Assembly: GCA_963281255.1 (NCBI GenBank)
Contig: OY725502.1
Span: forward strand, 2,108,001-2,172,000
DNA: 64,000 nucleotides
From: Aphrocallistes beatrix
Lineage: Eukaryota; Porifera; Hexactinellida; Sceptrulophora; Aphrocallistidae
Reading direction: 5' to 3'
Positions within the stretch are counted from its first letter, which is position 1, and each line of letters opens with the position of its first letter. The position numbers and the translations under genes are program-made. Positions 3,437 through 60,867 of the stretch are shown here, piece by piece. The notes beneath the pieces were generated by a model, which saw only the letters and a program-made list of their open reading frames with translations, was not told where the DNA came from and did no database searches.

Positions 3437-3705
3437 GTTTAAAATACTAATGGTAGATTTAATAACGTATTCTAACCCTTTTAAATGAATATTTACTCAT
3501 TATTACACTTCATTTTAGTTATTAATAAATGTTTACAATTTCATTTAAAAATAACCCATAAGTGTTAAAAATAATATGTGTAATAAGTAACAAAATTCTT
3601 TTTTGTAAATCTGTTTTCAATTTTCTTCTTTTAATTTGCCTACTCTACTAAGTATAAACTCTGAAATATTATTTCTCAAGCTAGAGAATCCTTTTACTCA
3701 CTATT

Positions 3706-4156
3706 ATTCCCAACCGCTGTTCTGCTCCCAGTTGTAAGAGCAATTATGACAATGAAGAGCAAGTCCCAGTGTTCAGAGTACCACTTAAGCCTGATGAACT
3801 TAGACAAGCATGGCTTCGATCTCTCCACAGAGATGGCCTTGATGAACTCAAAGCTGTTTATGTATGTTACAAGCATTTCAAAGATGGAGACATTGAATAT
3901 ACACACAAAATACCCAACGGTGATGGTACCTATCGGGAAATCCCGCGAAAGTGCTTAAAGCTAAAAGAAGGTGCAGTACCATCTATTCTACCAGGATGTC
4001 CATCTTACTATTCACCACACTCAGGAACTAAACGCTCTCGTCTATCCCTCGAGTCTAAAAGTGATGAACTCCTCTCTCAAGCAATGAGTCTCAGCCTAAT
4101 ATCAAATGCTGAGGAGAATAAGAAGTTTCTGATCTACACTTTCCAAGACCTGCAAG
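3706..4156 (+). pseudogene. THAP DNA-binding domain exon of the P-like transposase
   Basis: The frame gives the start of a THAP zinc finger: PNRCSAPSC, then 'VPVFRVP', a W in 'AWLRSL', C..HF ('CYKHF') and the closing 'AVPSILPG' motif, the C2CH pattern that binds transposon ends. The codon where sibling genes have ATG (MPNR…) is ATT at 3706-3708, so either the start was lost or translation begins upstream. A strong donor (CAAG then GTAAGT) ends the exon at 4156; reading on without splicing meets a stop at 4224. The exon sits inside the TIR-bounded P element and is followed by the transposase body on the same strand. Confidence 0.8.
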
Positions 4157-4383
4157 GTAAGTTACCACTTGTTTCTATTTATGAAACATGGTCATACTGG
4201 TATCCGAATCCAAGTACAAGCTAGATACTAGCAATATTTCCATTGATGTTTACTTATCAGTAGAATTTGTCTGTCAAAGCATATCGCAAAAGTGAAATCT
4301 TTCCAATATCTCAAATATATCTTAGTGACACTCGCCAACTAGAAATGATATTTATTAAAAGAAATTTCTATTTCACCTCTTAG

Positions 4384-6703
4384 CAGTACAGAAACGAAAA
4401 ATAACTCTTCCAATTCCAATTCTAATTCCAATGATTTTCATATTGCATCTGCACAAATTCACATCCAACAAGTTATCGATAAAGTCCAGGCTAATGTGCC
4501 TGAGGACGAATTGCATAATTGTCCAGAAATTTGTAGACTTCAATTTATTAAATGCCAACTTGAAAACAGTCTGATACCGAAAAATAGGCGCGCTATAACA
4601 TATTGACACAAATTTTGTCACTCAAAACACATTTAATTTCACCTACGTGTTATAGATATCTCCAGCGTATGTCCTGCTTATCACTGCCACACTTTAATAC
4701 ATTGGAAAAATTGTATTCCTCCTTTGGACTTGAGAATGAATTTTTCTCTTTCCTTAGACAATCAACGAAATCGTTTTCCCCAGAGCAAAAGCATGTGATC
4801 ATTCAAATGGATGAGATACATGTAAAATCGGATATTTCTTACAAATGTGGTAAAATATTTGGTTCAAATCTCGATTCTGATGATCCTATGAAAGTGTTTT
4901 CGCCATTATGGTGTCCAGTCTATATAAGAAATGGTCTTGTATCGTTCGTCTCTTCAATGTGCATCTGTATCAGCTGAAAAGTTATTTGACATCATCAAAT
5001 CATGTATTCGTGATGTTGAGGAATGTGGTCTATTCGTTCATGTCATATCTACTGATAACTACCCCCTAAATGTTAAACTTTTCAAATTGTTTTCTACTCT
5101 CGGGAAATTGGAAACAAGGGTTCCACATCCTAATGATATACATAGAAGCCTTTTCTTGACATTTGACTTTGTGCACATTCTTAAAACAATTCGTAATAAT
5201 TGGTTGAATCAACAATCTGAAAGTAAACTCTTTTCGTATCCTGATTTAAATTGTATTTCTATTGACCAATGTACAAATCCTTTGAAAAAACAATTTGCTT
5301 CTTTTCGTGACATTCGAATGCTATATAATTCTGAAAAGGATAGCTTGGCAAAACTAGCTCCACGTTTGACTTTAACCTTACTTGGACTTGGGGTCAAAGG
5401 TATAAATAGAAAATTCCCACTTTCATTTTCACTTTCAGTTCACTTTCAATTAACTTTCACTTTCACTTCAACATTCCAAGTCCAATTAGGGTTAAAGTCG
5501 TGTTATCCATCCATTCTTGAACGTCAAAATATTAAGTTGGTGCTAAAAGTAATTCATGAATCCACCATTGCTGCTCTGGCTATTCAGAATGAACAACGCA
5601 GTCCACCATTTAAGTGCCACACATCCGAATTTGTCCAGATTCTTTTATCTCTTTGGAAAATCTTTAATGTCAATGTACCGGGTAAGCGTATTCGATTGAA
5701 TGATCCATTGTCTAGTCCTTTGACATTTAATGATGAGCGCTTTGTTTTTCTTACCCGCATTGTATATTGGTTGGAAGCTTGTCAATCACTACCTGAGAAA
5801 GGTGGAAAACTGAGCAAGCAGACCTTTACAAGCTTAAGACATGCATGCCTTGCGTTGCCTGAGATTACAAATTTCCTAACTGAGAACTGTGGTTATTCTT
5901 ATCTCTTAACATCTTTCTTACAGACAGACCCGTTAGAACATCATTTTGGTTTATATCGTATGATGTCAGGTGCAAATTATCACATTTCCTATCTTCAGAT
6001 TTTAGAATCAGAGCGTCGTCTTAAAGTATCCAATATCTTAAACTTGTTTTCCAAGCAAACCGTTTCTAGTACAACATGTTTACAAGAGTTTACTCAATCC
6101 TTCTCTTCAATAGAAAGTACATATTGTACCATTGAAGTTGATTTAGATCCATTCTTGAATACAATATCAGACCTCTCTACCATTGAGTGTGAAATCCAGG
6201 TACTTCAGTCCTTAGCATTTATTGCTGGCTATTCAATACATCGATACTTCAAATGTTCTCAGCCTTGTCTTATATGTCGGGATATCTTAACTCTCGAAAA
6301 AGCTCTCTTTATTGATGATATGTCTCTGTCTCAATTCAAATTATTAGACCTCTCTGATCGTGGATCTTTAAAATATCCTTATGAGATGGTATTATAATGT
6401 ATCGTAATTGTCTGGAAGATTTTCGTTAACATTGAAAATGATGATGAACTCTTGATGCTATTAATTGAAGGACCATCCAGGAAAATTATTATTGAATTAT
6501 CAGTACATTATATAATGGCTAGTGAACATTGTGATTTATGGAATAAAGTCTGTTCTTCTTGTGCTGCAAGTGGCTCTTACATCCTTCAGAAACTTATATT
6601 CGTAGCTGTTAACTGTTTTTTAGCAAACAAAATTAAAAATTATAATTCACTTGTAGTTGCCAAGGGTGTGGAGAAGCGGAAACTGAAAAAATTTAACAAA
6701 TAG
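4384..6703 (+). pseudogene. P-element/THAP9-type transposase body, frameshifted
   Basis: After an acceptor-like AG near 4383, frame segments follow each other: about 4385-4602 (N-rich linker and 'NRRAITY'), 4603-4890 (including 'IIQMDEIHVKSD', matching the first catalytic Asp region of the RNase-H-like fold), and 4960-6397. The last carries 'STDNYPLN', 'FDFVHILKTIRNNW' and 'QTDPLEHHFG', all P/THAP9 landmarks. A final segment at about 6400-6703 ends in a basic 'VEKRKLKKFNK' tail, typical of the C terminus. The breaks near 4600, 4890-4985 and 6397 are frameshifts or stops, so this is a decayed gene. Residues translated from 5372-5491 come from a MITE lying in frame. The enzyme would cut and join the TIRs in the nucleus. 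Confidence 0.85.
5372..5495. mobile_element. TTAA-flanked MITE (about 116 bp) inserted in frame in the transposase
   Basis: The unit lies between TTAA at 5372-5375 and TTAA at 5492-5495, with inverse ends near CTTGGACTTGG and CCAAGTCC. The interior shares 'GGTCAAAGGTATAAATAGA' and a run of ACTTTCA-type repeats with copies at 27111, 35597 and 47399. Offset between the two TTAA sites is 120 bp, a multiple of three, and the insertion has no stop. Confidence 0.85.
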
Positions 6704-58397: not shown

Positions 58398-58427
<30 letters not shown>

Positions 58428-58895
58428 AAGCTGATTTTTGGCATGTCGGAGGCTTTTGGCTATGGTTCCACTAGGTTCTGAGCTCAAGCAAAATGTCGAC
58501 TCATCATGGAATTATGACGTCATTGTCACATTTTAAAAGTTAAGCAACACAGTTATTCGAGCATAACTCAGTCATTATAGGAGATAGAAGGCTGAAATTT
58601 TAATAGAATATGTATACTAACATACCTCACATATGATGCAACATAGCCTACTAAAGATAAGGCCTGATCACTACTTTGGACCAGGGATAACAGGAAGTCG
58701 AGTTTTCTATAATTTAACATAGCATAAAAATGGGTATTTTCGATTCATTCAATTGTCAAATGAGTACAATATTTTTTATTAGTACATCATAATCAACTAA
58801 TAGAAACTGTACTATTCTAAATATAATAGTAATTTGTTTCTTTCAAATTTCTCTGAAAATACATACACACACTATTTTGAACTAAGTTTAAGGAT

Positions 58896-58935
58896 CTTTC
58901 TCCCAGGTTCAATTTGGGTATAGGGGCGAAAGACT

Positions 58936-58991
<56 letters not shown>

Positions 58992-59858
58992 CTGTGCTAT
59001 GTGTGTAGTTTTATCAGGTAAAGCGAATGATTATATATAGGTATTGGGGTTGAAATGGTCTCAACCTATTCTCAAACTTTAAATGGGTAAGAAGTGCAGC
59101 TTACTTGTGTGAAGTTACAAGTTATGTTCGAATACAGAGGCTCTTAGTGGGCCATTTTGGTGAGTTGGTCCTAAGAGATGGGCGAAAGCCTGGTTAGTAA
59201 GGGTGCAGATGTGCTCGCTCCCTCAAAAAAGGTGAGCATGTCCGATTGGTTCTTCACCGAGCCAGAAGTGGCACCTTCTCTCGAAAGGGTATCGGGTTAA
59301 TATTCCCGAACCAGACACTTGGATGCCGTGTGGTCTTGCCTTCTCGGAGGTGGGCCGCATGGGGCACGGTAACGTATATATATCATTTATGCTAGTACTC
59401 GGTGACGCTTGCGATAGCCCTGGGAAGAGTTGTCTTTTCTTCTTAACCGTACCAACCGTGTGCACAGCCCTGGAAGCAGTTTACCTTGAGAGAGGGCTGG
59501 AGGTCGGGTAAAGCGCTGCACTTATTGCCGCGTCCAGTGCGCTATCGAGAGCCCTTGAAAAGCTGAGTTAGTACTGGACCATGTTAGTCTCGTGTCTGGC
59601 CGTACCCATCACCGCAACAGGTCTCCAAGGTGCAAAGCCTCTGGCCGATAGAACAATGTAGGTAAGGGAAGTCGGCAAAATGGATCCGTAACTTCGGGAA
59701 AAGGATTGGCTCTAAGGGCTGAGTAGGTCGGGCTGCGGGAAGAAGCGTCTGGGCAAGAGACCGATTGCTCGACTGGGGCTGGCCGGCCCTCACCGGTTGG
59801 GCGAGGAGTTGACGGCTCGGGCGTGGACACTCGCAGCTTGAAGCTGGTCGGCTGGAAA
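58896..59858 (+). rRNA. 28S rRNA fragment (pseudogene) inside a transposon
   Basis: Runs of universally conserved large-subunit sequence are present in order: GGGGCGAAAGACTAATCGAA with 'CATCTAGTAGCTGGTTCCCT', 'GGTAAAGCGAATGATTA', 'CTCAACCTATTCTCAAACTT', 'CGAAAGGGTATCGGGTTAAT', 'GAAGAGTTGTCTTTTCTTCT', 'AACAATGTAGGTAAGGGAAG' and 'GGATCCGTAACTTCGGG'. These cover the middle part of 28S, about a quarter of the molecule. Many substitutions in positions that are normally invariant (for example GGGGTTGAAATGGTC for GGGGTCGAAACGATC) and small insertions such as an ATATATAT run show that it is a decayed copy, not a functional gene. Both edges lie within the P1 element. Confidence 0.93.
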
Positions 59859-59972
59859 ACGCATCCACTTATCTTGTATATCTGGCGAATGAGGCATCTT
59901 GAATACAGATATACCACTGTGGTCATTATAGTACCCAGTCTGGCACATAGGTGCGGAACAAGAGTTTGGCAT
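59858..59972 (-). pseudogene. THAP first exon fused to 28S sequence
   Basis: ATG at 59972 gives MPNSCSAPMCQTGYYNDH then 'GISVFKMPHSPDIQDKWMRF', the start of a THAP finger with its first two cysteines and conserved W. At about 59858 the reading passes into antisense 28S sequence, so the second half of the finger (C..H and AVPx) is missing. The gene therefore encodes at most half a domain. Orientation is opposite to that of the rRNA. Confidence 0.82.
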
Positions 59973-60437
59973 AATCAATGACAAATTTACGATGCTAATA
60001 GTAAAAACAAACAAGATTAATCGAAACAAGAACAAACTAGGAGTAAAATCAGCAAGAAAATCAGTTAAGAAGCGGAATAGAAGTTGAATTTAGTTGGTAT
60101 ACATTTGAGAACAAATATTGTAATCATAATAATTCTAAAAATATACATTATGGGTGAATAATAAAATCCCTTTCCTTTTATCCCTGGTACAGTAAAATTT
60201 GCTCAGTGATCAGGCCTTATCTTAAGTAGGCTATGGATGCAACCATCTTTAAAAAATGATGACTCATCACTTTGTTATAACGTCATCATTACGCATCAAA
60301 ACATTTACATTGACAAATTTTGTGATTTCTCAAGTAATATAGATTTAACACTAAGATAGACATATGTAGAGATGTTATCTCCCTTATATTTAAACAATGT
60401 GATCCCAGACGACCGAAGGGAGCCTGCGGTGGACACT

Positions 60438-60860
60438 TTGTGTCCGCCGCAGGCTCCCTTCGGTCGTCTGGGATCACATTGTTTAAATATAAGGGAGATA
60501 ACATCTCTACATATGTCTATCTTAGTGTTAAATCTATATTACTTGAGAAATCACAAAATTTGTCAATGTAAATGTTTTGATGCGTAATGATGACGTTATA
60601 ACAAAGTGATGAGTCATCATTTTTTGATGATAGTTGCATCATATGTGAGATATGTTAGTATACATATTCTATTAAAATTTCAGCCTTCTATCTCCTATAA
60701 TGACTGAGTTATGCTCGAATAACTGTGTTGCTTAACTTTTAAAAACGTGACAATGACGTCATAATTCCATGATGAGTCGACATTTTGCTCTGAGCTCAGA
60801 ACCTAGTCGAGCCATAGCTAAAAGACTCCGACATGCCAAAAATCAGCTTTATATATATAC
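60438..60860 (+). repeat. Family X right arm, near-perfect mirror of the left arm
   Basis: The two arms meet at a hairpin centred on about 60438 and stay almost identical for at least 200 bp on each side. The same 71-codon frame can be read from both strands (60289-60504 and 60372-60587). Confidence 0.92.
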
Positions 60861-60867
60861 ATATATA

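Follow-up and report, generated by a model that had tools for sequence, protein, structure and literature searches.

A P-type DNA transposon family carrying a captured piece of the 28S rRNA gene in the hexactinellid sponge Aphrocallistes beatrix

Several described transposons resemble, in one respect or another, the element reported here. According to the parts of the literature cited here, the P element of Drosophila makes 8-bp target duplications (PMC7776569), and Galileo, a Drosophila transposon of the P superfamily, makes 7-bp duplications and has chimeric copies that arose by ectopic recombination (PMC2775673). The P-MITEs of Anopheles gambiae have kept P ends and duplications around a centre that is not P sequence, and their spread is attributed to P transposase (PMC1562414). 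Ribosomal sequence is carried by Pokey, a member of the piggyBac superfamily in Daphnia, which contains repeats from the rDNA spacers (IGS and ITS2) and inserts into 28S genes (PMC3849761); the Pokey repeats evolve in concert with the rDNA (PMC3849761). In maize, Ds elements combine transposon ends with filler taken from host genes (PMC3260210), and MER6, a Mariner-derived MITE, carries the V domain of a SINE and has amplified it (PMC6887750). Finally, SINE28 is a mobile sequence derived from 28S that retrotransposes by an RNA route (quoted in PMC6337102). The locus that we analysed lies in a stretch of 64,000 nucleotides of the A. beatrix genome (assembly GCA_963281255.1, contig OY725502.1, positions 2,108,001 to 2,172,000), hereafter called the window. 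It is a non-autonomous P-type transposon (58642-60235) whose middle consists of 28S sequence joined inside a THAP exon.

The element is flanked by two exact copies of the 7-bp target duplication GATGCAA (58635..58641 on the left and 60236..60242 on the right, neither with a strand). As is characteristic of the P superfamily it is bounded by terminal inverted repeats, here of 31 bp (58642..58672 on the plus strand, pairing with 60205..60235 on the minus strand), the left being 96.8% identical to the reverse complement of the right. The P-type sequence is found in two ends, both belonging to a transposase gene on the minus strand: a left end of 269 bp (58642..58910) from the 3' side of the gene, which is common to the rRNA-free relatives L020 (contig C7) and L050 (C12), and a right end of 380 bp (59856..60235) from the 5' side, the outer 233 bp of which are shared with L020 at 95% identity. 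The empty site is represented by a copy of the host repeat that is inverted (60341..60865, minus strand) and free of any interruption; the flanks of the element, joined with one copy of the duplication, matched this copy at 96.8% over 525 bp. The terminal repeats, the exact duplication and an uninterrupted host sequence elsewhere had all been proposed in the initial annotation and are borne out, as is its central claim of a P-type transposon with 28S sequence inside its THAP exon, which is confirmed by the Rfam match, the ends and the duplication, together with a sub-threshold match to half a THAP domain (see below). At the insertion the host repeat itself (58412-58641 and 60243-60865) is arranged as a long inverted pair; in the genome it is very abundant, with 1909 candidate places, 40 of which were scored.

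The 28S piece (58911..59855, 945 bp, sense on the plus strand) was matched by the Rfam model LSU_rRNA_eukarya (RF02543) with 262.4 bits (E = 2e-67). Its edges, 58911 and 59855, were set by alignment to L026, a locus in the same assembly that contains 18S, 5.8S and 28S; the edges suggested previously (about 58896 and 59858, enclosing about 960 bp) were close, and are revised accordingly. In rDNA terms the captured block amounts to 1386 bp (L026 3948-5333), and the full copy C9a (see below) has 1337 bp of 28S. The window copy has private rRNA deletions of 380 bp and 14 bp. The joint of the larger one is at 59158..59159 (no strand), where positions 515-894 of the C9a reference are gone, and the other copies are without it. 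What looks like decay in the window copy is for the most part loss of sequence by deletion. The donor of the host fragment persists, in that the rDNA unit L026 is present elsewhere in the assembly, and the fragment sits between intact transposon ends.

The relatives and the other copies support the assignment to the P superfamily. A duplication of 7 or 8 bp, which is a further trait of the superfamily, was found as an exact 7-bp duplication in all four free-standing 28S copies, and a P-type RNase H transposase was found in the full-length relatives. L020 (C7, 3760 bp) has the same ends and no rRNA, with a duplication that matches at 6 of 7 bases, and L060 (C7:3336350-3340152, 3803 bp) has the 7-bp sequence ATATTCT on both sides. 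Both contain pieces of PF21787 (TNP-like_RNaseH_N) that score above the cut-off (best E-values 7.2e-6 for L020 and 1.8e-11 for L060), and an L060 piece matches the Drosophila P transposase 6p5a (E = 3.7e-4). The element does not have the traits of rRNA-derived SINEs (SINE3, SINE28): its ends are inverted, its duplications are of a fixed 7 bp and there is no tail at the rRNA edges. A second P-type element elsewhere in the window (3685-6397, plus strand) encodes a complete THAP domain (E = 2.7e-13), and a frame of 489 aa in it resembles P-type transposase weakly, with matches below the cut-off.

We searched the 100.5-Mb assembly with the left 269 bp of the element and scored all 20 candidates. 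Eleven loci had at least 190 bp of the left end, and 28S sequence was present in nine of them, distributed over eight contigs: the window copy (C16), C1, C2, C6, C9a (C9, 4373022), C9b (C9, 1607077), C10, C12 (C12, 664551) and C19. The two rRNA-free loci are L020 and L050 (C12:2806524). When the 28S segment of L026 was used as a DNA query in a second search, in which all 12 candidates were scored, the places found were the nine transposon copies, L026, L027 on C10 and a fragment on C13. Nine of the 12 places that match the captured part of 28S are thus transposon copies, a proportion that holds for the assembly and not for the cell, because the assembly may contain too little of the rDNA array.

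L027 (G000:C10:3087500-3096500) is a 28S copy interrupted by a 0.7-kb insertion with inverted ends; it is without about 290 bp present in L026 and is probably a decayed rDNA copy. Inside the 28S fragment on C13 is an element of 1006 bp (G000:C13:2348758-2349763; L069, L022) that has P-like ends, with inverted repeats 120 bp or longer, and is flanked by the 7-bp duplication CAGCTGC. The end of this element is very abundant, with 2444 candidate places in the genome, 40 of which were scored, and its position means that elements with P-like ends come into contact with 28S DNA here. Several members of the 28S-bearing family have lost internal sequence: in addition to the 380 bp gone from the window copy, C19 has lost 600 bp, with a 4-bp filler, and in C12 177 bp were replaced by 391 bp of another repeat. 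The right end of C12 is also internally shortened. In C2 (L009), a repeat resembling the host repeat of the window is inserted at element positions 191-779, and the left 28S joint was removed.

Comparison of the copies indicated that the capture was a single event. The left joint between 28S and P sequence is kept, with at most one substitution, in eight of the nine copies (all except C2, whose joint was removed by that other insertion), and the right joint in seven, C9b and C19 being truncated. A 46-bp deletion within the rRNA is present in eight of the nine copies, the whole stretch being gone from the window copy, and is found in neither L026 nor L027. It is the recurrence of both joints and of this deletion across copies that identifies one capture. 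The initial annotation had expected the joints to recur elsewhere if the unit moved as a whole, as they do, and had regarded rRNA edges with a target duplication of their own as the mark of a later insertion; none was seen.

These joints also bear on the possibility that the rRNA arrived as a separate insertion, either a retrocopy or a SINE-like sequence, in a P element that was already mobile. Mobile sequences of this kind exist, SINE28 being one (PMC6337102). However, neither a duplication nor a tail was found at the rRNA edges, the block comes from the interior of 28S and has flush edges in every copy that retains the joints, and about 3.1 kb of P sequence that is present in L020 (3760 bp) is absent, and replaced, at the same place. 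Measured against L020, the chimera retains 649 bp of P sequence, so what the 28S displaced at capture was the main part of the transposase gene; it did not simply insert into a complete element. We consider a separate insertion very improbable. No microhomology was found at the left joint, where the rRNA-free relatives L020 and L050 run on in P sequence beyond 58910. The right joint is not comparable with an unbroken parent, because no intact P1 donor (P1 being the P-type element that received the 28S) with THAP exon 1 was found in the assembly, the similarity of L020 to the right end being confined to its outer 233 bp.

To estimate divergence we took distances from reference-anchored columns (reference C9a, 1335 usable rRNA columns); whole-element alignment distances were dropped for C2, C12 and C19, being inflated by inserts and deletions. 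The pooled comparison comprised five copies at separate places (the window copy, C1, C10, C12 and C9a), and omitted C6, C2 and C9b (the members, besides C9a, of the nested group described below) and C19 (truncated). Pairwise divergence was 1.79% in the rRNA (198/11080) and 1.77% in the P ends (111/6280). This equality implies a single clock and argues against constraint on the rRNA, i.e. the rRNA is a passenger that diverges at the rate of the P ends. Of the 1335 rRNA columns, 59 were variable among the copies, and five substitutions were fixed in all copies covering the column and absent from the rDNA references. The copies differed from L026 by 1.6-2.1% and from L027 by 4.2-5.2%, and L026 differed from L027 by 4.0%; these age figures are relative and give no absolute date, because L026 and L027 may not be the functional consensus. 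The capture preceded the spread of the family by a short interval. An old capture, which had been read earlier from the decay of conserved rRNA positions, is not supported by five fixed substitutions and one 46-bp deletion set against 1.79% divergence among the copies. We saw no sign of concerted evolution with the rDNA, the 46-bp deletion and the five substitutions being fixed against it.

Transposases of the P superfamily start with a THAP domain. At the right joint, the minus strand of 59856..59972 encodes 39 aa that resemble the first half of such a domain and continue into antisense 28S. They match positions 1-36 of the PF05485 profile with E = 6.6e-4 and 20.8 bits, below the gathering score of 23.9; the mid-domain junction first noted for this exon is in keeping with this match. 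The 39 aa of the window copy are 75% identical to the first THAP half of L060, in which the domain is spread over two exons. In a Pfam search the first half of L060 gave no match, and the second half scored below the cut-off (E = 5.6e-4). The zinc ligands of the THAP domain are divided between its two halves, and a THAP finger is therefore not expected to form from the half that was kept. Genome-wide there are many THAP-like first exons: a 39-aa query gave 201 candidate places, of which 150 were scored, and all 150 matched at E <=0.5.

A frame that runs from the THAP ATG into antisense 28S is present in all seven copies that retain the ATG, as might be predicted if the chimera were functional, with either this frame or an antisense 28S RNA acting on the transposon or the host. 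Against this, the frame ends at different points among the copies and varies from 58 to 133 aa, the second THAP half (in another exon of L060) is missing, and the rRNA and P ends diverge equally. We rejected a fusion protein as the function because of the variation in frame length between copies. Judged from the sequences, a functional chimera would be as improbable as a separate insertion of the rRNA, and we think it just as doubtful that the scattered 28S copies, read in antisense from the P 5' end that was kept, might act on the host. If they did, the effect could involve e.g. small RNAs against rRNA, or templates for exchange with the rDNA, and a P-type transposon would have been turned into an rDNA-homologous regulatory or recombination element.

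Transposition after the capture is recorded in the flanks of the copies. The flanks differ among the four free-standing 28S copies, and so do their 7-bp duplications, all of them exact: GATGCAA (window), GGCAAGC (C1), ATTCTAG (C10) and GAAATAG (C12). The element has therefore transposed, at least four times, since it acquired the rRNA. These differences also mean that no fixed insertion site in rDNA, such as that of Pokey, is used. The initial annotation had reasoned that copies with different 7-bp duplications would prove such movement, and that, if other copies exist, the rRNA is being spread by P-type transposition. The latter holds for the element's own transposition in these four copies; another part of the spread occurred by riding inside a second P-type element.

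This second element, which we named P2 (it begins CATAGCATTCTAATACACTAAGG), contains C2, C6, C9a and C9b, all of which have common flanks. Without an insert, P2 is represented by L046 (2023 bp, duplication CTCTATC), whose THAP exon scores above the cut-off (E = 3.7e-6), and by L049 (2030 bp, duplication GGACAAC), both duplications being exact and of 7 bp. Three nested copies have both outer P2 ends; two of these have exact 7-bp duplications (ACTGAAT and ACTTACC) and C9a is without any. C6 and C9a are 99.956% identical over 2271 bp. P2 carried P1(28S) onward with it, making 7-bp duplications of its own. At the inner joints between P1 and P2 (L028, L029, L030 and L031) no duplication was found in the three tested, and 1728 bp of P2 are missing there; these joints would fit an aberrant transposition, or two insertions in P2 that recombined with each other, and the cited section on Galileo provides a precedent for chimeric copies (PMC2775673). 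In trees the nested copies C2, C6, C9a and C9b were grouped with support of 87 (combined), 78 (rRNA) and 41 (P ends), and the trees add little. A P2-like end is also present in L027, about 60 bp from the first 28S match and outside it.

The P2 flanks common to four of the nine copies would be explained by spread through segmental duplication, or solely as part of P2, with no transposition of the 28S-bearing element itself. Four other copies, however, have different exact 7-bp duplications directly at the P1 ends, and for the window copy a corresponding empty site was found. We therefore regard this account as a shade less probable again than a separate insertion, although P2-borne spread remains true for part of the copies. 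Ribosomal DNA is a frequent source of misassembly, but an artefact in which rDNA reads were joined to transposon ends is of practically negligible probability, as the left joint recurs at eight loci and the right at seven, with matching duplications at four, and the copies share a 46-bp deletion that is absent from L026.

The account that we favour, and hold to be very probable, is that a gap or break in P1 was repaired with 28S sequence as filler, and that the product then spread both by its own transposition and inside P2. From its form alone, the 28S is most likely filler from the faulty repair of a P-element gap. A full-length P-type element would first have suffered an excision gap or a break. 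Repair would have spared only the ends: the left 269 bp, and a right-hand 380 bp that stops halfway through THAP exon 1. Most of the transposase gene between them has given way to the 28S block; this substitution is observed in the copies, and the repair pathway is proposed to account for it. Template switching onto a very abundant gene could have supplied the filler, and so could the joining in of an rDNA fragment. Since both ends were kept, the chimera could presumably be moved by transposase supplied by relatives. At least four transpositions with 7-bp duplications followed, and the chimera also ended up inside the related element P2, which took it to further sites.

That transposons capture host fragments is known in principle; what is new is the combination of this cargo with this carrier and a spread in two steps, and we recognised no report of 28S coding sequence inside a P-type element in the open-licence literature searched. 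The family demonstrates that a cut-and-paste DNA transposon can capture and spread part of a core ribosomal RNA gene, and that a second transposon that houses the first can spread the captured 28S again. The order of events can be read from the shared joints, the duplications, the rRNA-free relatives and the rDNA of the same assembly, which is unusual for a filler capture. Dispersed look-alikes of rDNA are relevant to rDNA barcoding and to ectopic recombination with the rDNA array, and in annotation such 28S pieces can pass for rRNA genes.

As far as the cited parts of the literature describe them, each of the known systems shares some of these features. The P-MITEs of Anopheles gambiae are alike in retaining P ends and duplications around a centre unrelated to P; their centre is of unknown origin and their duplications are of 8 bp, whereas the present family has a 28S centre and duplications of 7 bp. 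In this last feature the family agrees with Galileo, also of the P superfamily, and differs from Drosophila P with its 8 bp. Galileo, however, has long, internally repetitive inverted ends, and the sections cited report no rRNA in it, whereas here the cargo is 28S. Maize Ds elements likewise consist of ends with captured host DNA, but belong to the hAT superfamily and hold fragments of protein genes, and MER6 likewise amplified a foreign sequence on a DNA transposon, in that case a SINE domain on Mariner and in this case 28S on P. SINE28 is a mobile 28S-derived sequence too, but the inverted ends and 7-bp duplications of the present family are those of DNA transposition. Pokey is similar in being a DNA transposon that bears rDNA-derived sequence; its cargo consists of spacer repeats that evolve in concert with the rDNA, whereas the P-type family of A. 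beatrix carries 28S coding sequence that shows no sign of doing so.
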